64,000 nt of DNA, from positions 1 through 64,000 of the forward strand of contig CANMJR010000008.1 in NCBI GenBank assembly GCA_947498025.1. The letters are read 5' to 3'. A program made the position numbers and the translations under genes. The DNA is from Helicobacteraceae bacterium. Its GTDB lineage: Bacteria; Campylobacterota; Campylobacteria; Campylobacterales; Sulfurimonadaceae. Numbering within the stretch: position 1 is the first letter of the stretch; the number at the start of each line of letters is the position of its first letter. A model generated the notes under the pieces. It was not told the DNA's origin and made no database searches. It worked only from the letters and a program-made list of their open reading frames with translations. Below, in pieces: positions 15,022 through 28,429 of this stretch.

Positions 15022-16038
15022 ATGAATCAAAATAGAACGCTCACAACGCAAGATGAACTCACAGAATTTTTACTCTACACTACACCAAACAACAATGTAA
15101 GAGTTGAGATTTATCTCAACAATGAGACCGTTTGGTTGCCTCAAAAGAGGATTGCGGAGCTTTTTGGAGTGCAAAGACCTGCAGTTACAAAACACCTAAA
15201 AAATATCTTTGAGTGCGGTGAACTCGAAGAAAATTCAGTTAGTTCCATTTTGGAACATACTGCCGAAGATGGGAAAAAATATCAAACTAACTATTACAAC
15301 CTCGATGCCATCCTCTCCGTCGGCTACCGTGTAAACTCAAGCCAAGCGACACAGTTTCGCATCTGGGCGACTAAAATCCTCAAAGAGTATATCATCAAAG
15401 GTTTTGCCATGGATGATGAGAGGCTCAAAAACGGCAGATATTTCGGCAAAGATTACTTCAAAGAACTTCTTGAACGCGTCCGTTCTATCCGCACGAGCGA
15501 GAGAAGAATTTACCAGCAAATCACCGACATTTTTGCAGAGTGCAGCATGGATTATGACGCAAAATCACAAACTACAAAAAACTTTTACGCCACCATTCAA
15601 AACAGATTTCACTATGCCATAAGCGGACAAACAGCCGCCGAAATCATCTACGAAAATGCCGACAAAACCAAACCTTACATGGGCTTACAAACTTTTAAAA
15701 ATGCACCAAGCGGAAGAGTTCTAAAGTCGGATACGGTCATCGCAAAAAACTATCTCAGCGAAGAGGAAATCAAAAGATTAGAGCGAGCAGTATCGGGCTA
15801 TTTCGACTACATAGAGCGACTTATAGAAAATAAAACAACCCTCAGAATGGAACAAGTCGCCGACTCTGTCAATAAATTCCTAGAATTCAACGAGTACAAA
15901 ATCCTCCAAAACAACGGCACAATCTCAAAAATACAAGCAGAAGAAAAAGCCTTTGCAGAGTATGAGGAGTTTAACAAAACGCAGAAAATAGAGTCCGATT
16001 TTGACAGAGAGATGAAGAGGGTTTTTGGGAATAGTTAA
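15022..16038 (+). CDS. RhuM-family protein
   Basis: A 338-residue protein recognisable as the RhuM family. An N-terminal winged-helix-like region (VWLPQKRIAELFGVQRPAVTKHLKNIFECGEL) is followed by the conserved YYNLDAILSVGYRVNSSQATQFRIWATKILKEY block. RhuM genes occur in pathogenicity islands, prophage remnants and variable regions, and their biochemical role is not settled; the first region suggests DNA binding. It stands alone after polA and starts an accessory patch before the AAA pair at 16149. There is a 30-bp gap after polA and an AAAAGG RBS. Base composition looks close to the host, so it may be an old acquisition. Confidence 0.8.
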   Translation: MNQNRTLTTQDELTEFLLYTTPNNNVRVEIYLNNETVWLPQKRIAELFGVQRPAVTKHLKNIFECGELEENSVSSILEHTAEDGKKYQTNYYNLDAILSVGYRVNSSQATQFRIWATKILKEYIIKGFAMDDERLKNGRYFGKDYFKELLERVRSIRTSERRIYQQITDIFAECSMDYDAKSQTTKNFYATIQNRFHYAISGQTAAEIIYENADKTKPYMGLQTFKNAPSGRVLKSDTVIAKNYLSEEEIKRLERAVSGYFDYIERLIENKTTLRMEQVADSVNKFLEFNEYKILQNNGTISKIQAEEKAFAEYEEFNKTQKIESDFDREMKRVFGNS

Positions 16039-16148
16039 CTACTTCCTTTCTTGAAAACTATTTCAAAAACTAAAATTGTAAAATTGCTTACTATTGGGTA
16101 AAATGTGATTACAAAAAAAACATAAAAAATTTACAATAAAGTGATGAA

Positions 16149-17375
16149 ATGCCAAATTTGAATCTTAAAAACTTTGCCAAGATAAAAGGTAGTGATTTTG
16201 ATATAGAAGATATAACTGTTTTTGCTGGGAAACCCGGTAGTGGAAAGAGTTATATTATGAAATTTCAGTATGCATATACTGAAGCCATGAGTTCTATATT
16301 GAATGGAACTTATACAATGCATTATGCTTTAATGGATAATTCTGAAAATGAAGAAAGTATACTGCAAGCATTTAGAAACCTATTGTCACATTATGGTATA
16401 AATAATCAAGAAGAAATCAATCAATATATTGATTTAAATGATTATATTAAGGCTTATGAATTAATTGATTCTGAATCAAAAAATGTTGAAGAAAAAAATA
16501 AAGCCTTTATACATGTGATAAAAAATATTTTAAAAAAGCGTTCTGAAAAACAAACAAAATCTTTACTTGCTTCAAAAGATGAAAAGTTTCATTTCATTTT
16601 TAGAAATATTTTAGAATCTACATTTGGAGACATTAATCAACTAAATGAAAATTTTATTTACTCTACAGAAGAAGTAACCATAAATTATGGTGATAATAAA
16701 TTGGCAGTAAATAATTTACTTTTTAATGACAGGAATGAAGGGGCTATATTTGTTGAAACTCCGCTAATACTGGAATTTCAAAAATTTTTGCCAACTGAAA
16801 AATTTAAAGTTCCTTATCACATTGATTCGTTATTGCAAGAATTAAATAAAAATGACTTTACTTTTACAAGTGAAGATACAAATAAATTTATACATGAGTT
16901 TAAGACATCAACTTCTAAAATTATCAACGGAAATATTGCAAAAGGAACGCAAGGGTTTTCGTTTGAGTCAGATAGTGGAAAAAACTACAATATAGTAAAT
17001 GCCTCATCAGGAATAAAAAGTATAGGACTATTGCAATACTTAGTAACAAATAAAGCATTAAAAAAAGGTTCAACACTATTTTGGGAAGAACCAGAAGTTC
17101 ATCTTCATCCGACATGGCAGCTAAAAATGATTGATTTATTTATAGAACTAATGAATGCTGGCGTTAAGATAGTATTTTCTACACATAGCCCTTTTATGGC
17201 AGATTATCTTAATGCAAAAGCACAAAGAGAAAAGTTTTCAGACAGAGTTTCTTTTAATCTTTTAAGTGAAGAAAATGGCGTAGTTTCTAACACGATTTTG
17301 AATGATGAAAATTGGAATTTATTACAAGATGAATTGATGGGTGCTTTTGAGGATATTATGTGGCAATACCTATAG
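16149..17375 (+). CDS. AAA15/OLD-like ATPase, candidate defence protein
   Basis: A 408-residue ABC/SMC-type ATPase. Walker A is GKPGSGKS (residues 27-34), and the C-terminal half has TLFWEEPEVHLHPTWQ (Walker B with catalytic Glu) and VKIVFSTHSPFMADYL (switch His). NASSGIKSIGLLQYL occupies the signature position. There is no TOPRIM domain, so it is not a full OLD nuclease. The middle is AT-rich and Lys/Glu/Asn-rich, visibly different from flanking housekeeping genes. A small gene starts 16 bases before its end, so the two proteins probably work together. ATPase-effector pairs of this shape are common in anti-phage systems such as Gabija, Septu and PARIS; this is not a clear member of any of these. 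Confidence 0.7.
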   Translation: MPNLNLKNFAKIKGSDFDIEDITVFAGKPGSGKSYIMKFQYAYTEAMSSILNGTYTMHYALMDNSENEESILQAFRNLLSHYGINNQEEINQYIDLNDYIKAYELIDSESKNVEEKNKAFIHVIKNILKKRSEKQTKSLLASKDEKFHFIFRNILESTFGDINQLNENFIYSTEEVTINYGDNKLAVNNLLFNDRNEGAIFVETPLILEFQKFLPTEKFKVPYHIDSLLQELNKNDFTFTSEDTNKFIHEFKTSTSKIINGNIAKGTQGFSFESDSGKNYNIVNASSGIKSIGLLQYLVTNKALKKGSTLFWEEPEVHLHPTWQLKMIDLFIELMNAGVKIVFSTHSPFMADYLNAKAQREKFSDRVSFNLLSEENGVVSNTILNDENWNLLQDELMGAFEDIMWQYL

Positions 17376-17905
17376 CCAACATTCAACAGGGTTGTTGTGA
17401 TAGCGATTTAAGTCAATTTACTATTATTGATGGGGATGCCTTAGATAGCGTAGGTTCTACTTGTGATAAAATAATTGAATGTTCGGATAAATATATTTTA
17501 GTAGAAGAAAAAAGTTTACTATTCGGATTTTTTAATTTATGTTGCAATGAGGAAAGTCAAAATCTTGAACACTATAAATATGAGCAAGATGGTACAATTT
17601 ATCTTAGAATTACTGATGTAATAAACCTCATCAATGATATTGATATAGAAATAAAAAAAAGATTGTTTTCTGAAAATATAGCAAATTTACTCTCTTCATC
17701 TTTACATAAAGTAAGTAATACAACACATATATTAGCAACAAAATTTGATAATACTAGAACAGCTAACATGTCAATATTTTATTTATACTGTAATAGTGGG
17801 AAGCCTATTGATAGAATTATGGGTGTTTGGTTATCAAGATATAAAAAAAATGTATTTATTGAGTGTCACGCTTTAAAGGCACTATTGCAACAAAGATTAT
17901 GTTAG
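17360..17905 (+). CDS. Small partner of the ATPase, possible PD-(D/E)XK-like nuclease
   Basis: A 181-residue protein I do not recognise as a named family. Residues 36-51 read D-K-I-I-E-C-S-D-K-Y-I-L-V-E-E-K, which fits the core strand pattern of PD-(D/E)XK nucleases (Asp36, then Glu49-x-Lys51 after a hairpin). The rest is mixed helix and strand with eight or so cysteines, including CC pairs at 12-13 and 61-62. The start is GTG at 17360 with GAGGA six bases before it, overlapping the ATPase frame by 16 bases. Position and overlap argue for a two-protein system with the ATPase as sensor and this as effector. That function is inference. Confidence 0.5.
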   Translation: MAIPIANIQQGCCDSDLSQFTIIDGDALDSVGSTCDKIIECSDKYILVEEKSLLFGFFNLCCNEESQNLEHYKYEQDGTIYLRITDVINLINDIDIEIKKRLFSENIANLLSSSLHKVSNTTHILATKFDNTRTANMSIFYLYCNSGKPIDRIMGVWLSRYKKNVFIECHALKALLQQRLC

Positions 17906-19324: not shown

Positions 19325-19660
19325 ATGAATGCAGAACATCAAAAAATGTATGATGACTTAACTCAGCTTCTCTCCTCTTACGCTGCGCATGATTCTGCAA
19401 AAAATTTGGCTTCCCATGTCGCTCTCGTTTCGCTGGAGATGAATCATCTTTATGAAGATATGGGTTTTCTAAGCCGTACACAAATGGGTGCATTTATGTT
19501 AGAAAATTTTCCCGCATTGGCAAAGCAAAAACCAAAAGAGAAGCTTTGGAAAAAGTTTTTGTATGAACAGATAAATGCCATTGCTCCTGCATGTGCAAAG
19601 TGTGACGACCAACTGACATGTTTTAGATGCAGCTTAGAACAAAATATGTATGTCTCTTAA
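19325..19660 (+). CDS. NifQ-like molybdenum-handling protein (short form)
   Basis: A 111-residue protein. The segment HLYEDMGFLSRTQMGAF followed by ENFPALAKQ and WKKFLYEQI matches the conserved core of NifQ, and the C-terminus has the Cys cluster C-x2-C-x5-C-x2-C (CAKCDDQLTCFRC). NifQ carries a Mo-Fe-S cluster and delivers molybdenum to FeMo-cofactor assembly. NifQ proteins are usually about 170-200 residues, so the N-terminal part is missing or replaced, and the Cys spacing differs from the usual C-x4-C-x2-C-x5-C. A sigma-54-type box lies 42 bp upstream of the ATG. The next gene, an Nfu-like Fe-S carrier, follows within 20 bp. Confidence 0.7.
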   Translation: MNAEHQKMYDDLTQLLSSYAAHDSAKNLASHVALVSLEMNHLYEDMGFLSRTQMGAFMLENFPALAKQKPKEKLWKKFLYEQINAIAPACAKCDDQLTCFRCSLEQNMYVS

Positions 19661-19676
19661 AATAAAGGAGAATAAG

Positions 19677-20201
19677 ATGAGCAAAATATTTGATAAAAGT
19701 GTATTGACATGTGCAAACTCAGAGTATGATGAAGCGTACATAAAAGCATTGCAACACGCTAAAGAAGCTGCGGATAAAGGGCATGCAGACGCACAACTTA
19801 AAACCGGATTGCTTTATAGACAAGAGGGCAAAATAGCCGAGGCTATGCGTTATCTCATTACCGCCGCACACAACAACAGCACTCAGGCGCAAGCACTTAT
19901 AACTTATGTCAGTAACGCATCTATTGAATCAACAAGAAACAGCGCTTTTCATGATTTAGATAGAGATAAACAGCGTGTTTTAGTCGAAAATATGATTGCG
20001 ACAAAAATCCGTCCGACCCTCGCAGGTGATGGCGGAGGAATCGAACTCATTAACTATGTAGGCGGAAAAACACCGCAAATATGGCTGAACTACTTGGGCA
20101 ACTGTTCGGGTTGTCAGCTTGGTTCTACTTCGACGGCGGACATGTTACTGAAGCATTTTGAAACAATGATTGACAAAAATGTCGTACTTTATCTGATGTA
20201 A
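19677..20201 (+). CDS. Sel1/TPR-NifU C-terminal domain (Nfu-like) fusion
   Basis: A 174-residue protein in two parts. Residues about 1-85 form Sel1/TPR-like helices (YIKALQHAKEAADKGHADAQLKTGLLYRQEGKIAEAMRYL in shorter blocks). Residues about 95-174 are a NifU C-terminal domain with IRPTLAGDGGGIELINY and the cluster-binding CSGCQLG (C-x-x-C). Nfu domains bind a [4Fe-4S] cluster between two subunits and hand it to target enzymes. The helical repeat probably gives partner specificity. The ATG at 19677 has AAAGGAG before it. It follows the nifQ-like gene, so it likely serves nitrogenase maturation. It ends four bases before a dispersed repeat. Confidence 0.8.
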   Translation: MSKIFDKSVLTCANSEYDEAYIKALQHAKEAADKGHADAQLKTGLLYRQEGKIAEAMRYLITAAHNNSTQAQALITYVSNASIESTRNSAFHDLDRDKQRVLVENMIATKIRPTLAGDGGGIELINYVGGKTPQIWLNYLGNCSGCQLGSTSTADMLLKHFETMIDKNVVLYLM

Positions 20202-20204
20202 ACA

Positions 20205-20345
20205 TGATGTTATACCCTCAAATGAGCAAAGCCCATTTGAGTGGCAAGGACACAAGTGTCCTTTGCAATCCCCTAAAGCTTCCAGCTTAAATGCTGGAGA
20301 TTTTTAAGGTTTCTTCGTACCATTTTAAATGAGTGCGTAACATTA
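20205..20345. repeat. Dispersed TIR repeat, copy 3 (diverged, reverse orientation)
   Basis: About 141 bp bounded by TGATGTTAT on the left and GTGCGTAACATTA on the right. Read on the minus strand it shows the same internal order as copy 2 (AGCTTTAGGGG, then a GGACAC/GTGTCC hairpin, then a second stem). The second stem is CTCAAATG/CATTTGAG instead of TCTAAACG/CGTTTAGA, so pairing is kept while bases change. It ends two bases before the sigma-54 box of the ferredoxin unit. Confidence 0.7.
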
Positions 20346-20347
20346 GA

Positions 20348-20363
20348 TAGAACAAAAAATGCA
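20348..20363 (+). promoter_or_regulatory. Sigma-54-type promoter of the ferredoxin-nifX operon
   Basis: TAGAACAAAAAATGCA, with AG and GC ten bases apart, is identical to the nifQ-unit box in its conserved positions. The ATG at 20395 follows 31 bp later, with RBS AGGAGAA between. Confidence 0.6.
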
Positions 20364-20394
20364 AGATAAATTGAAAATATTTTAGGAGAAAAAA

Positions 20395-20781
20395 ATGGCT
20401 GTAATGATAACTGACTTATGTATAAACTGTGGGGATTGTGCTCCTGAGTGTCCGGTAGCGGCGATATTAAGTAATGATGACGAGAAAAACCCACATGCCG
20501 ATGAGCGATTTTATGTAAAAGCCGAGAGTTGTGTTGAGTGCGTCGGTCATGCAGATGCGCCGCGTTGTGCAGCAGTTTGCCCGACAGAAGGTTCAATTGT
20601 TTGGGATATGCCTTATACAACAGAGTTTGAGGAGTATTTTGTGGCAGGGCATGAAGATGGTACATATAAAATTCGTGAACATAAGAAAAAAGGTTTGATG
20701 CTGCCATCAGAAAAAGCACAACCTTTTATGGAAAATATCAGCAAAGAGTTGCGTGAATCACATGCAGCCGTAGCGGTTTAG
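20395..20781 (+). CDS. Nif-associated 2[4Fe-4S] ferredoxin
   Basis: A 128-residue ferredoxin. The first cluster motif is CINCGDCAPECP (C-x2-C-x2-C-x3-C-P). The second has the inserted spacing C-x2-C-x8-C-x3-C (CVECVGHADAPRCAAVCP), a form typical of FdxN/FdxB-like ferredoxins found with nif genes. A 50-residue C-terminal extension (AGHEDGTYKIREHKKKG onwards) follows. It probably carries low-potential electrons to nitrogenase or to a cofactor-assembly step. RBS AGGAG is seven bases before the ATG. A close paralogue lies at 21171, with nifX between them. Confidence 0.85.
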   Translation: MAVMITDLCINCGDCAPECPVAAILSNDDEKNPHADERFYVKAESCVECVGHADAPRCAAVCPTEGSIVWDMPYTTEFEEYFVAGHEDGTYKIREHKKKGLMLPSEKAQPFMENISKELRESHAAVAV

Positions 20782-20793
20782 TAAGATAATCTC

Positions 20794-21171
20794 ATGAATA
20801 TCGCGTTTGCATCCTCTGACGGAGAGCTTATAAACCAACATTTCGGCTGGTCTAAAAAGTTTTATTTATATAGGGTAAATAAAGAGAAGTTTGAGTTTTT
20901 GGGTGAAATTGATAGCTCGAATGAACCGGAGGGTGAAAAAGAGAAGTTAGATTATAAGATTGGTACGATTAGCAGAGCTGAGATACTTTACTGTACTCAA
21001 ATCGGTCCAAACGCTTCAAAGATGGTGCAATCTGCAGGAATTTACCCTGCACGGGTTGCGGAGGGTGAGAGCATAACCGAGGCTTTGAAAAAACTTCAGG
21101 CAACGCTAAACGACAACCCTCCGCCTTGGCTGTTACGAATATATTATAAAACACAAGAGAGGGATGAATAA
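20794..21171 (+). CDS. nifX: NifX/NafY-type FeMo-cofactor carrier
   Basis: A 125-residue protein starting MNIAFASSDGELINQHFG, the signature of the dinitrogenase iron-molybdenum cofactor-binding domain shared by NifX, NafY and the NifB C-terminus. ILYCTQIGPNASKMV and GIYPARVAEGESI complete it. NifX binds the NifB cofactor or the VK-cluster and passes it during FeMo-co synthesis on NifEN. The length is close to other stand-alone NifX proteins. It sits between two ferredoxin genes, and its TAA overlaps the next ATG (TAATG). The RBS is poor, so translation may rely on coupling. Confidence 0.85.
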   Translation: MNIAFASSDGELINQHFGWSKKFYLYRVNKEKFEFLGEIDSSNEPEGEKEKLDYKIGTISRAEILYCTQIGPNASKMVQSAGIYPARVAEGESITEALKKLQATLNDNPPPWLLRIYYKTQERDE

Positions 21172-21551
21172 TGGCGGTAATAATTACGGATCTATGTATA
21201 AATTGTGATGCATGTTTGCAAAATTGTCCGGTGAATGCCATTTTAGATGATACAAACAATCCATTAAAACAGAAGCGTTATTATGTGCAGTCAGAGAAGT
21301 GTGTTGAGTGCGTCGATATTTTTGATGACCCGCAATGTGCCGCAATTTGTCCAAGCATAGGGTGTATAACATGGGATATGCCATTTATTAAAGAGTTTGA
21401 TGCACACTACTTAAATGAAGAACTTTATAGACTTTGTGACATAGACAATATTGTCAAGTCTCCTGCTGTTAAAGAGAAAAAATACCGCAGAGATATTCCT
21501 CTGAATATGCGCGGAATAGGTAAAAAGGTACAGGTTGAGCCATTGAATTAA
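21171..21551 (+). CDS. Second nif-associated 2[4Fe-4S] ferredoxin
   Basis: A 126-residue paralogue of the ferredoxin at 20395. Motifs are CINCDACLQNCP and CVECVDIFDDPQCAAICP, again with eight residues between the second and third Cys of the second site. The C-terminal 40 residues differ from the first copy (KEKKYRRDIPLNMRG) and are basic. It starts on a TAATG overlap with nifX. Two similar ferredoxins in one operon suggest separate electron-donor roles, for example nitrogenase versus NifB/NifEN assembly; that division is inference. Confidence 0.85.
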   Translation: MAVIITDLCINCDACLQNCPVNAILDDTNNPLKQKRYYVQSEKCVECVDIFDDPQCAAICPSIGCITWDMPFIKEFDAHYLNEELYRLCDIDNIVKSPAVKEKKYRRDIPLNMRGIGKKVQVEPLN

Positions 21552-22580: not shown

Positions 22581-25172
22581 CTAAGCTTTAGAAGTACAAT
22601 CAACCATCTTTTTATATATTGCATGCACATCTAAAATAGAGAGTAACTGCTCTTTATGTATCTCTTTTTCAGGTCGTACAACTGCTTTTGTCAAAGTATT
22701 GCTTCCTGTAATAGATGATTTATAGTGTTGCATGTCTTTGTTTGCAATTTCAGGACTGTCAAAAATGCGTTCTATTGCAATTCCCAAATGAACCTCTCTT
22801 CCATCCTCACTTAAGCGTAAAAGAATGACATCATGTGCCGTGTGATCATAAGAGAAATTTTCTCCGGTAATAAGTGAATAGAGAGCAACTACGCCGATAG
22901 TTGTACTTTTATGACTGATAACGCCTATAAAGTACTCATTACAGCCGATGATTTTGGTAAGCGGTTGATTGCTTAGAGATGCAACAATATACTCCGATTC
23001 AATACCATAAATCATATTTCCCAAAAAGAATGTGGATATATCTGTTGTTGGCTCCCCGGATTGCGGTTTGGAATAGGAGTAGGACTTTACTTCATTATTT
23101 ATTTCGTCATGGGATGCGTTTGTTTCTCTATCTGCTATTTGTGCAAAAATTAGAGCTATCACATCATTTGAATAGTTATCATTCACTTTATATTCGCGGT
23201 ATCCTTTTGAAAGTGATGCACCGACTGAAAAATATTTACCCTCATACTCTATAATATTCGCATAACTCTCGCCGGATTTGAGGTTAAAAAAGCTATTGTC
23301 AATGTTGAGCGTATCACCAATCTTCAGTCCTTTATTGGTGGAGGAGATAATTGTTTTTTCTTTATCACAAAAGAGGGCAAAATAGCTCTGCTCCGTTTGA
23401 CCTTCGTTATTTTTTGGCAGTGTATCTTCCAGCATGGCATAAAATTCAGGTTCAGAGTTGAAGACAATGGCAATCCCTCCCAAAACCTCACTGTGGTTAT
23501 CTATGTCGGTTATACTCGCTCCGTAAATGTAGGTGCTGCGATGAGAGTATAAAGAGGATTTTGCATAGGGGCTAACGCTATAAAATTGTGAATCCGTGAG
23601 TGCCAAAGTGTCTAAAACCCAGCTATTATTTAACCTATTGCCGATAATATGGCGCTCCTCTTGGTTAGACACGGCAACAATAACACCATTTTTGTCATAG
23701 ATAAATATGTTCGTATAAACCGTGTATAGGTTGTTTATGTAAGCCAATATTTTACTCATAGCTTCATGGTTGGCATTTTCGTTCTTGAGTGACTTTCTGA
23801 AAAATGTCGTTAATGCCCACCATCTGCAATCGTTTGCTCTCTCGTAAAGGTTTCTATCCATTATATCTATGGCTAGTTTTGCCAAAAATGAGACATCATT
23901 TAAAATAGAACTTATAACCGTGTTGTTGAGGTTTGCAATGCTCTCCTCAAAGATGGTTTTTGTTCTTGAGCCTGTTTTTGAAATCTCTATAAGTAAAGAT
24001 TTACTAAAAGAGTTGTCACCGCTTTTTGTGTTTGCAATTTTTACATTTCCGTTCCAAACGGTTACATCCAGCTCTTTTTGTATCTTCTCTGCCTCTTTTG
24101 GAATCGTTATAAGCTCTTCCCCAAAAAGATTGCTGTTTCGCATAACAGATTGTAAAATAGCAGCATCGAGTGAGGGCAATTTCTTATCGGAAGTGATTGC
24201 AAAGGCATTTTCAAGCGGAATCATCACATGTCCCAGCCAGTCAAGACCAAAAAAGCCTTGGTACCCTTTTGTTTTACATGTTTTTGCCAAATACTCTCTT
24301 CCGGCAAATCGTACAATTTTATACTCTCTGTTCATCACTTTTTGCATCGTTGCGCCGAGTGGAATTTGGTAGGCATCAGAGGATGAAATAACCTTTGAGG
24401 AGCCGTCAAGGAGCATAACATTGAGCCAATCCTCTTTGTCGATGAGGTTGTCAAAAATTCCTCGCATCTCATCTTCAAATTTGAAAAACAGAGCAAGTAC
24501 ACCTAAAACTTCAGAACCTGAATCATTTGTTCGGGTTACTCTAAAAGCATAAAGAAGCGTTTTTTCTTTGGATGGAGTTAAGTCGCAGTAGTCATAGTAT
24601 TCTATATAATCTTGAGAGCTTGTGAGTGCTTCGCTGATAAAGTTGCAAGAAGATTTTGTGCATGTATTGTTTTGGTCAAGCTGAACTAATATTTCGCCGG
24701 AGGTATTGAGGAGAACAATATTGTCGTAAACACTATATTTTGCGACATATTCGTTAAATCTTTGTATCAACTCTTTTTTGAGTTTGGATTTTTTGTATCT
24801 GTAATTGTCATCTGTTTTGTTGTTTATCAAAACATGTTCCATATATTCGCGTATATCATCATCTGTTGCCAAAAAACCAATGTCAGCCGTTCGCTCAAAC
24901 AAATTCCGAATGACAATATCAACTGCTACTTGTGCCTTCGAACTCATCTCCGATGTCAATTTTTTGAGCCGTTCTGCGCCTAGTTTGAGCAAAAGCTGCT
25001 CAGTCAAGCTCTGAAATGCTTCTCTAGTATCGGACATATCCATGCCTAAATTGGACATCTGCCCAAGAAGCGTAAGAAGATTCCATCGCTCTGCGAGTGA
25101 GTTTAAAGCACTGTTATAATCCGTAACTTCGGGCATGTAGGCGGTGAGTTTTAAAAGATCGTTGTTCTCCAT
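22581..25172 (-). CDS. Tandem Cache-like-CheW chemotaxis protein
   Basis: An 863-residue protein with no membrane helix or signal peptide. Two long regions (about 60-340 and 420-690) share a pattern: ER-A-x-D, a helix, then VY-[DT]-N-I-x-[LI]-x-x-x-x-G-x-[IL]-V, then E-V-L-G-[VG]-[LI]-A-[LI]-[VF]-F, and a second G-D/G-A-T half. This looks like a duplicated double-Cache sensor kept in the cytoplasm. The last about 160 residues are CheW-like (FFLGNMIYGIESEYIVASL, IIGCNEYFIGVISHKSTTIGVVALY, DVILLRLSEDGREVHLGIAIERIFD). It would couple CheA to receptors while sensing a ligand itself. No methyl-accepting domain is present. ATG at 25172 with AAGG upstream. Confidence 0.7.
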   Translation of the reverse strand: MENNDLLKLTAYMPEVTDYNSALNSLAERWNLLTLLGQMSNLGMDMSDTREAFQSLTEQLLLKLGAERLKKLTSEMSSKAQVAVDIVIRNLFERTADIGFLATDDDIREYMEHVLINNKTDDNYRYKKSKLKKELIQRFNEYVAKYSVYDNIVLLNTSGEILVQLDQNNTCTKSSCNFISEALTSSQDYIEYYDYCDLTPSKEKTLLYAFRVTRTNDSGSEVLGVLALFFKFEDEMRGIFDNLIDKEDWLNVMLLDGSSKVISSSDAYQIPLGATMQKVMNREYKIVRFAGREYLAKTCKTKGYQGFFGLDWLGHVMIPLENAFAITSDKKLPSLDAAILQSVMRNSNLFGEELITIPKEAEKIQKELDVTVWNGNVKIANTKSGDNSFSKSLLIEISKTGSRTKTIFEESIANLNNTVISSILNDVSFLAKLAIDIMDRNLYERANDCRWWALTTFFRKSLKNENANHEAMSKILAYINNLYTVYTNIFIYDKNGVIVAVSNQEERHIIGNRLNNSWVLDTLALTDSQFYSVSPYAKSSLYSHRSTYIYGASITDIDNHSEVLGGIAIVFNSEPEFYAMLEDTLPKNNEGQTEQSYFALFCDKEKTIISSTNKGLKIGDTLNIDNSFFNLKSGESYANIIEYEGKYFSVGASLSKGYREYKVNDNYSNDVIALIFAQIADRETNASHDEINNEVKSYSYSKPQSGEPTTDISTFFLGNMIYGIESEYIVASLSNQPLTKIIGCNEYFIGVISHKSTTIGVVALYSLITGENFSYDHTAHDVILLRLSEDGREVHLGIAIERIFDSPEIANKDMQHYKSSITGSNTLTKAVVRPEKEIHKEQLLSILDVHAIYKKMVDCTSKA

Positions 25173-25238: not shown

Positions 25239-25260
25239 ATCCCTAAAATTTTTTAGGGAT
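25239..25260 (-). terminator. Hairpin after the nifS operon
   Basis: ATCCCTAAA and TTTAGGGAT form a 9-bp stem around a short A/T centre, 20 bases past the stop of the last gene of the operon (minus strand). The T-tract is imperfect, so termination is likely but not certain. Confidence 0.55.
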
Positions 25261-25279: not shown

Positions 25280-25843
25280 TTACACGGCTCCGAAAAGCAC
25301 TTTTTTGTTTGCACTTTGGTTTGATTTTACCTCTTCATAACTTTTGTCACTGATGCGAAGTTTAGTAGATTTGATTTCGTCATAGATTGTGTCTATCTTC
25401 TCAACCGGAGAGAGTTTTTTCAAATCACCCTTAGAGAGGTCTGCAAAGTCAACAAGCTCGTTCCAAACCGAACTTTCATCGAGTGAAAAAGCATTAAATG
25501 TAAAACCTTTATACTCAAATTTACCGTTTTTGTCTAAGTCTGTTACGAAGAGTATATAAAGCCCTGTAGGAGAAAGTATCTCTTTGTATTGTTCGACGAA
25601 TGGTTCAAAAAAGTCTAGCGTCTCTAGCTCACATGCCAAAAAATCTATCGTATCGCTATTTGTAACCAAGATAGTTTGCGTAGCGGTCGCTTTCGGCGGG
25701 AGCTGTTTGTCGGCGGAGAGAATATCCCCCGGTGTAATGATGAGACTTCCACGGTACCCGTAAGAATATTTGTCCGTTTTATCATTGAATGATGCTTGCC
25801 ACTGCAAGTTGTTATCTATTATAAACTCTTTTACTGTCGGCAT
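25280..25843 (-). CDS. Unknown protein at the end of the nifS operon
   Basis: A 187-residue soluble protein I do not recognise. It opens MPTVKEFIIDNNLQWQASF and is rich in aromatic and acidic residues, with a central strand-rich part (GLYILFVTDLDKNGKFEYKG). The C-terminus is helical (KSTKLRISDKSYEEVKSNQ). It has one cysteine and no metal motif. It is the last gene of the Tpx-like, SIR2-like, nifS operon, 53 bases after nifS, so its expression should follow nitrogen-fixation control. The RBS AAGGA precedes the ATG by eight bases. A role in nitrogenase protection or cofactor work is only inferred from position. Confidence 0.6.
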   Translation of the reverse strand: MPTVKEFIIDNNLQWQASFNDKTDKYSYGYRGSLIITPGDILSADKQLPPKATATQTILVTNSDTIDFLACELETLDFFEPFVEQYKEILSPTGLYILFVTDLDKNGKFEYKGFTFNAFSLDESSVWNELVDFADLSKGDLKKLSPVEKIDTIYDEIKSTKLRISDKSYEEVKSNQSANKKVLFGAV

Positions 25844-25896: not shown

Positions 25897-27910
<2,014 letters not shown>

Positions 27911-27914
<4 letters not shown>

Positions 27915-28429
27915 TCGTGGCATCCTTGTCCCGTGTAGCAAATTTGTGCTGCTGCAACTTTGCGCATGAGTGTGTCGACTCTGAATGTGTCATTTAAATC
28001 TTTAACAAATTCATCATAAAAAATTGCCCCGTCTTTGGAGATTAAAATGAGTGCTTTTGTGAGCTCAAAATCATAGGGTTCACCCAGTAATTTGACTCCG
28101 TAAAAGTCTCCAAATTCGCCTTCGGCATCAATCAAAAAATCTATTTTTTCTAGGTGAGGGTTTGTGTGTGACGCATTCGCAACAATCAAAGTAGCAGTCA
28201 CAATAAAGTCCCCTCCCTGTGGAAGAAACTCGTTTATCTGTCTCAACTCCTCCAAAAATGGCTCATCTATAAAAGGAGTCGTTATAAAAAGCTGAGTTTG
28301 ACCGTTCTGTCCGCCAATTACATGGGGAGTGTTTTCTTCATCTTGGAGAGTAACCCTCTGTGAAGCATACCCCACATCAAGTGGTAAATCTTCTAATTTC
28401 ATGGTTTGATTTTTAAATTTTATCTGCAA
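27911..28429 (-). CDS. Thiol-peroxidase-like protein lacking the catalytic cysteines
   Basis: A 172-residue protein aligning by eye along the whole length of Tpx peroxiredoxins: LEDLPLDVGYASQRVTL, LFITTPFIDEPFLEELRQINEF, FIVTATLIVANAS, LIDAEGEFGDFYGVKLLGEPYDFELTKALILISKDGAIFYDEFVKDL. In Tpx the peroxidatic Cys sits in V-D-T-P-T-C; here that stretch is FIDEPF, and the resolving Cys is also gone. The only cysteines are Cys164 and Cys170 in the tail (CYTGQGCHE). Peroxidase activity by the usual route is therefore unlikely. The start is TTG at 28429 with AAGGAG seven bases before it. It is first in the operon behind a sigma-54-type box. Confidence 0.6.

Follow-up and report, generated by a model that had tools for sequence, protein, structure and literature searches.

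A soluble twin-dCache protein fused to CheW in Campylobacterota, a candidate internal chemosensory input with a possible chemoreceptor ancestry

CheW is usually viewed as a passive coupler, and Cache modules are normally located outside the membrane. Receptors of the type of Helicobacter pylori TlpA, Campylobacter jejuni Tlp3 and Pseudomonas aeruginosa PctA are anchored in the membrane, carry a single dCache outside the cytoplasm and have a full signalling domain. Here we describe a gene at 22581..25172, on the minus strand of the first 64,000 nucleotides of contig CANMJR010000008.1 (hereafter the window, meaning this whole stretch; assembly GCA_947498025.1, a Helicobacteraceae bacterium placed in the Sulfurimonadaceae). 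Its product, of 863 amino acids (aa), shares the double Cache (dCache) fold with those receptors and consists of two dCache units followed by a C-terminal CheW domain, with no evident membrane helix. From its sequence, it is best read as a CheW-fused internal sensor that would differ from the CheWS type.

CheWS of Treponema denticola, the first characterised CheW-fused chemotaxis sensor, combines CheW with a CheR-like S-adenosylmethionine (SAM) sensor and is anchored in the array, according to the available part of PMC10653840. It is the nearest working model for the window protein, as both join a CheW domain to a sensor of the cell interior. In CheWS, as far as that part of the source describes it, the CheR-like sensor lies C-terminal to CheW, whereas here two dCaches lie N-terminal to it, separated by a tip-like linker, in another phylum, and no CheR-like SAM-binding domain is matched (Pfam, up to E 1, the limit of all Pfam scans of this protein). 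CheV, composed of CheW and a receiver, is likewise a CheW-family adaptor with an extra input domain; the window protein differs in having no receiver match and a dCache as input. The same genome holds CheW ORFs (open reading frames) of CheV size, with open frames of 314 and 322 aa, named by size only. CheW-CZB and CheW-PAS proteins also pair CheW with a sensor domain, of a different fold, and 30 unstudied CheW architectures, 12 of them with input domains, are tabulated in Fig. S10 of the same source, again to the extent available (PMC10653840). That figure may include dCache-CheW; if so, the architecture is listed but unstudied. A cytoplasmic dCache-CheW protein was not recognised in the literature searched, the scope of which left supplements out. 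The available parts of PMC10613068 and PMC2147049 contain nothing on such a protein, and the word 'Cache' is absent from the accessible portions of the main texts on Campylobacterota chemosensory evolution (PMC9321776) and on CheA architectures (PMC10782961).

The window protein is built as follows:

22581..25172, minus strand: complete gene (863 aa) encoding, in this order, the N-terminal helices, dCache1, the tip-like linker, dCache2 and CheW, from the ORF list and its translation
24921..25172, minus strand: N-terminal helical region, residues 1-84; helices predicted at 14-39 and 47-101 with low confidence
24213..24920, minus strand: dCache unit 1, residues ~85-320, signature RNLFERTADIGFLATD; self-BLAST 3e-11, BLAST to tip-dCache proteins, and a block with a predicted local distance difference test score (pLDDT) of 58-85 over residues 101-270
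23928..24140, minus strand: linker between the dCaches, residues ~345-415, a putative decayed chemoreceptor signalling-tip hairpin, from profile searches and alignment
23118..23927, minus strand: dCache unit 2, residues ~416-685, signature RNLYERANDCRWWALT; Pfam dCache_1 at 418-631 (whole-protein score below the cut-off) and VIA-align
22602..23045, minus strand: CheW domain, residues ~710-857; PF01584 at 714-853 and alignment with 14 CheW domains of the same genome

An earlier note, made from the letters of this DNA, had described an 863-residue frame at this position and left out its strand; the frame is real and open, it lies on the minus strand, and in a search of its own genome it gives a 100% match without internal stops. 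The duplication proposed in that note is borne out by the self-alignment it had called for: in a BLASTP of residues 1-395 against 396-705, residues 45-307 align with ~396-661 at 23% identity (E 3e-11, the value of a two-sequence comparison). The Pfam family dCache_1 (PF02743) matches two stretches of the protein with 40.3 bits, below the cut-off of 45. Among eight scanned relatives (L numbers are their locus labels), four lie above that cut-off (L007 71.9, L061 61.2, L071 51 and L068 49.2 bits), two lie below it (L069 42.6 bits and the paralog L010 29.8 bits), and two, L064 and L066, give no match. The AlphaFold model of the protein is shallow, being built from 9 sequences, with a mean pLDDT of 54 and Cache cores mostly at 60-90. 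Its second unit resembles solved extracytoplasmic dCaches with Z of 16.9-20.5 among the 50 matches listed by VIA-align, nearly all of which span residues ~413-681, the best crystal structure scoring Z 20.3. Structure prediction, the check suggested for a Cache fold, thus bore out the second unit (Z to 20.5) and left the first outside the matches listed; the evidence for dCache1 consists of the duplication, the second of the Pfam stretches and the BLAST matches to tip-dCache proteins described below. Two PAS-like subdomains after a long helix, the hallmark of dCache, are seen in dCache2 by Z and in dCache1 by homology to dCache2. As each unit is a double Cache, the protein has four Cache subdomains. 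Only dCache_1, CheW, Cache_WalK and a weak domain of unknown function (DUF) were matched by Pfam, the chemoreceptor signalling domain PF00015 not being among them, and a PDB sequence search with the whole protein returned nothing up to E 0.1. The motif R.W[YF] marks amino-acid binding. This motif, the sole ligand motif tried, occurs in neither dCache of any of 50 family members and in 2 of 35 tip-dCache proteins.

The absence of a signal or membrane helix, also claimed beforehand, holds by hydropathy for the protein and its relatives alike. The best 19-residue Kyte-Doolittle mean in the window protein is 1.44, and no membrane helix is indicated. Among 50 relatives, 8 slightly exceed 1.6 (maximum 1.77, always mid-protein), and none exceeds 1.8 in any 15-residue window starting within the first 40 residues. 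Judged by hydropathy only, the protein lacks the signal or membrane helix that would go with the extracytoplasmic location typical of dCache (PF02743).

The CheW-like domain predicted behind the two repeats is confirmed by PF01584 (E 3.8e-9, 36.7 bits against a cut-off of 23.5, profile positions 4-134 of 138), which also exceeds its curated cut-off in the paralog. The domain has a pLDDT of 22-38 in the full model, so its assignment comes from Pfam and the alignment, which by eye spans the complete fold, with the strands for binding the P5 domain of CheA included.

The protein belongs to a genuine family. Its host is Sulfurimonas-like, as Sulfurimonas metagenome-assembled genomes (MAGs) encode the closest relatives, with 92% and 87% identity, and a paralog of the same architecture, 44% identical, is present in the same genome. 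At E 1e-20, members were counted by eye in 59 of 397 sampled Campylobacterota genomes; in 52 of these the match runs into CheW, to at least residue 840, and in the other 7 it stops earlier. Some family copies are split or carry a stop. A second, smaller source is the class of Neiella (Pseudomonadota), with members in 4 of 274 genomes, Neiella included (E 1e-10). Two member types are found, one with CheW (~850 aa) and one without it (~630-680 aa). A midpoint-rooted tree was built from residues ~71-685 of 50 selected members. One branch, with support of 100/100 and recovered in 100% of 200 bootstrap trees, separates the 35 CheW fusions from all others. The next to join these fusions (100/98) are three CheW-less members found in Neiella and two further genomes of that class; the deeper branching is uncertain because of the midpoint rooting and the long branches of several members without CheW. 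Outside the 50-row set are further copies of the same gene (L004, L005, L009, L075, L076, L115 and others), fragments or broken frames (L008, L016, L043, L072, L073, L077) and more close relatives (e.g., L019, L020, L031, L032, L034, L036, L037, L039). A pattern scan of viral contigs found no relatives. The twin-dCache proteins without CheW include L061-L071 (in part), L078 and L007; three of them (L068, L069 and L071) are followed downstream by the same two ORFs, of 99 aa and 809-846 aa, ClpS- and ClpA-like by eye. One CheW-type member, L006, from a MAG labelled Piscirickettsiaceae, falls inside the Sulfurimonas-type group (60% identical), which reflects either gene transfer or a wrongly binned contig.

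The association with chemotaxis that had been suggested for the protein is upheld by two lines of evidence. First, chemoreceptor domains occur in 342 of the 397 genomes and in all 59 that carry the family (lists compared by eye); the probability of such an overlap by chance is 7e-5 on the assumption of independent genomes, an assumption that does not hold. Second, homologous dCaches are elsewhere fused to chemoreceptor tips. A search of plasmid proteins gave nine weak matches, two of which were examined in full. In both, of ~345 aa, a chemoreceptor tip (PF00015, E 1e-16 and 2e-15) forms the N-terminus and is followed by a homologous dCache-like part, which in one of them matches dCache_1 with 28 bits, below the cut-off. 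By BLAST, dCache2 of the window protein matches the two with E ~1e-19, and dCache1 with 3e-13 and 4e-11. A match to a plasmid tip-dCache protein (E 1e-20) was obtained in 31 of 398 sampled Pseudomonadota genomes, and 27 of 30 loci retrieved from them have the tip motif; L150 and L151 were not used as tips because a wrong frame had been selected, L152 is a CheW fusion, and a Rhizobium plasmid match was left out, its tip being out of frame. Together with 7 named Alpha- and Betaproteobacterial plasmid proteins, these 27 make up 34 short proteins with a tip directly before a homologous dCache, and those that are annotated carry the name methyl-accepting chemotaxis protein. A membrane helix is not evident in the tip-dCache proteins, 34 of 35 staying at or below 1.6 in the 19-residue window and one reaching 1.75. 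They resemble the window family in their homologous dCache, their lack of an evident membrane helix and a chemosensory element directly before the dCache, and they differ from it in having one dCache, an intact tip and no CheW. With little helix beyond the tip, the proteins of loci L123-L149, L101, L102 and L117-L121 have the appearance of a receptor turned inside out. A cytoplasmic dCache directly behind a chemoreceptor tip is new in the present analysis, and no functional study of the short tip-dCache proteins was found in the literature searched. Taken with the CheW fusions, these apparently cytoplasmic proteins place a dCache next to an array element in two ways, behind a tip and before CheW.

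The same arrangement, a tip directly before a homologous dCache, may be preserved in altered form within the window family. The linker between its two dCaches is ~70 residues long, and in the three Neiella-type relatives it resembles a receptor tip that is two residues shorter in its turn. A tip profile made from 43 sequences (9 receptors and 34 tips) scores the linkers of two of these relatives at 11.6 and 9.1 bits, the best of 1000 local shuffles used as decoys reaching 7.3, and ranks them, among 1219 ORFs, right after 19 ORFs of 18-103 bits that were taken as receptors; the third Neiella-type linker obtains 4.9 bits, equalled by 1 in 1000 shuffles. After addition of the two linkers to the profile, 12 further linkers (the third Neiella-type, nine of Campylobacterota without CheW and two of CheW fusions) score above all decoys, in rounds that are not independent evidence because the added pieces reached up to 25 residues into the Cache helix of the family, and further in later rounds. 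Only ten alignment columns show no variation among the 50 members, and the linker contributes three of these (L368, N374 and G375). N374, kept by every member, aligns with an Asn present in 9/9 receptors and 34/34 tips. In the second tip helix, Phe and Glu persist in 34 of 35 CheW-type members; in the first, Glu and Arg have been lost, being kept in 0 and 2 of the 35, respectively. On sequence grounds, it is likely that the linker descends from a receptor tip, a conclusion that is supported, if more weakly than the domain order or the grouping in the tree. A second tip was sought at the N-terminus (residues 1-84) and rejected, as linker, tip and mixed profiles and hhalign with column shuffles gave nothing better than decoys.

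We consider it reasonably probable that the window protein is a soluble chemosensory input protein that docks through CheW and descends from a soluble chemoreceptor with its tip before the dCache. In the mechanism that we propose, the two cytoplasmic dCache units would sense an internal condition or metabolite, the C-terminal CheW would, as its family membership suggests, dock the protein into the CheA/CheW ring of the array, and a change in the dCaches would alter CheA activity or the make-up of the array. The ancestor would most likely have been a soluble chemoreceptor with a signalling-tip hairpin directly before the dCache; this unit would have become a pair of dCaches flanking the hairpin. 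One group would have gained a C-terminal CheW as the receptor signature of its tip disappeared. The earlier note had proposed an adaptor that senses an internal metabolite and gates CheA directly, without a receptor. Its reading was right on location and on the chemotaxis link, is a proposal as to ligand and CheA control, and was incomplete, since the protein looks like a remodelled soluble chemoreceptor more than like an adaptor to which a sensor was added. A broader version, in which a soluble chemoreceptor lineage swapped its docking element, the tip decaying to a linker and CheW being gained, so that the sensor joins the CheA/CheW baseplate ring and provides a receptor-less internal metabolic route in many Campylobacterota, is more tentative, and we put it forward as a possibility.

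Several results weigh against this explanation, the first set of which concerns the linker. The match of the best relative's linker has an E of 0.014 for a 1050-sequence database, and when the profile is restricted to the 9 classical receptors, the first linker ranks 20th of 1219 (6.5 bits, E 0.54) and the second 40th. The window protein's own linker has no tip match above decoys, hhalign of the linker against receptor alignments is not significant (probability at most 2.6%), and both structure prediction models give it a pLDDT of ~26-43 and draw strands. None of 12 Campylobacterota members without CheW has retained the Phe and Glu that belong to the second tip helix, and the alignment register itself favours a tip because the profile already contained family linkers. 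The linker might accordingly be an ordinary helical linker resembling a tip by chance convergence, with CheW simply added to two dCaches, a view that is compatible with a sensor and fits the lack of a direct match in the window protein, the weak profile-profile scores and the unresolved model. We regard this as unlikely, as the position of the match, immediately ahead of the homologous dCache, coincides exactly with that of a genuine tip in other proteins, none of the 1000 shuffles reaches the two best relatives, and L368, N374 and G375, three of only ten invariant columns, would be needless in a mere spacer.

A second set concerns the CheW domain. None of the 35 CheW-type members has the Arg of the 'NLRG' motif, 20 of them carrying Lys at that position, and 17 retain its partner Glu; among the 14 other CheW-type domains of the same genome, 13 have the Arg and 13 the Glu. 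The corresponding Arg62-Glu38 salt bridge (Escherichia coli numbering) aligns the receptor and kinase sites and matters for signalling and not for assembly, and its retention is tied to class F7, as stated in the accessible part of PMC3828127. With the Arg lost and the Glu in 17 of 35, canonical coupling is doubtful, and the missing Arg speaks against simple gating of CheA. Array docking of the domain remains plausible from its sequence, and a doubtful standard coupling to receptors fits a protein that brings its own sensor. These features could also belong to a mainly structural, divergent CheW that occupies or caps ring positions, tunes assembly or insulates several chemotaxis systems from one another, with dCaches that are ligand-free dimerisation or spacing modules. 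CheW is matched 17 times in the genome and the chemoreceptor domain 36 times; the window protein's CheW ranks last by score among the 17 and the paralog's next to last. FrzB provides a precedent, being a divergent CheW that does not bind its CheA and lacks the CheA-binding strands, according to the part available of PMC6952110; in the alignment of the window protein those strands are present by eye. Both dCache units, however, keep strong signatures (RNL[FY]ER...) over large distances, and dCache pairs without CheW exist, which would be pointless as ring spacers. We regard a structural role of this kind as unlikely.

Finally, a receptor-like ORF is a direct neighbour in only 3 of 44 loci (L053, L054 and L067), the other neighbours being without systematic annotation. 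That the protein signals elsewhere than in the flagellar array, for instance to cyclic di-GMP turnover or another regulatory partner, with CheW as a mere protein-protein adaptor, is improbable, since neighbours differ between lineages and chemoreceptor domains are found in every family genome, even though the paralog (L010/L060) is followed by a same-strand ORF resembling an EAL protein (by eye), one tip-dCache relative by an EAL gene with diguanylate cyclase genes two genes further, and another by a GGDEF gene.

The neighbours of the gene vary by lineage across the family loci. In the window, the elements directly upstream are:

25239..25260, minus strand: perfect 10-bp inverted repeat between the upstream gene and the sensor gene, by eye
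25280..25843, minus strand: upstream gene, 187 aa, no convincing family match; directly upstream also in L002, L003 and L005
25897..27078, minus strand: upstream NifS-type cysteine desulfurase; TIGR03403, 612.1 bits against a cut-off of 587.7

They belong to a minus-strand run that comprises, upstream, thiol-peroxidase-like, SIR2-like, NifS-type desulfurase and 187-aa genes and, downstream, a 278-aa ORF without assignment; by clustering, a homologous NifS-like ORF of 393-394 aa occupies the same place in L002, L003 and L005. An operon with this nifS-like cluster was considered and rejected, as the inverted repeat and a TATA-like stretch lie between it and the sensor gene. Inverted repeats of different sequence are seen by eye at a similar place in L001, L002, L003 and L005, which suggests that the repeat is probably a terminator of the upstream cluster and that the sensor gene is separately transcribed, probably from its own promoter. 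The repeat is absent from the output of the terminator scan, and promoter-like sites in the region are at chance level (21 found, 18.4 expected). The SIR2-like and thiol-peroxidase-like ORFs (27075-28429, minus strand) overlap each other, and the first also overlaps nifS, an unusual operon make-up. Adjoining the sensor-gene run, a nif group on the plus strand (19325-21551) encodes NifQ, a NifU-domain protein, a NifX-like protein and a YfhL-like ferredoxin, the last two matches being below the NCBIfam cut-offs. A nitrogen- or sulfur-related signal for the sensor is possible, as a lead only. At 15022-17905 there is a low-GC stretch, with 27.5% at 16-18 kb against 32-43% in other blocks, that encodes a RhuM-family protein (PF13310; PADLOC candidate PDC-S05), an AAA ATPase whose matches (HEC-02A, AriA and PtuA models) are defence-like, and a 181-aa ORF without matches; it is probably an acquired anti-phage or toxin-antitoxin islet.

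If the proposed explanation is true, the protein would be a second CheW-fused internal sensor, unrelated to CheWS and present in 52 of the 397 sampled Campylobacterota genomes. It would mean that the dCache fold works inside cells too, and it would offer a concrete evolutionary path from a receptor tip to a ring component. For the carriers, a sulfur-oxidising bacterium and its relatives, it may provide a means by which the cell could steer by its own internal chemistry.

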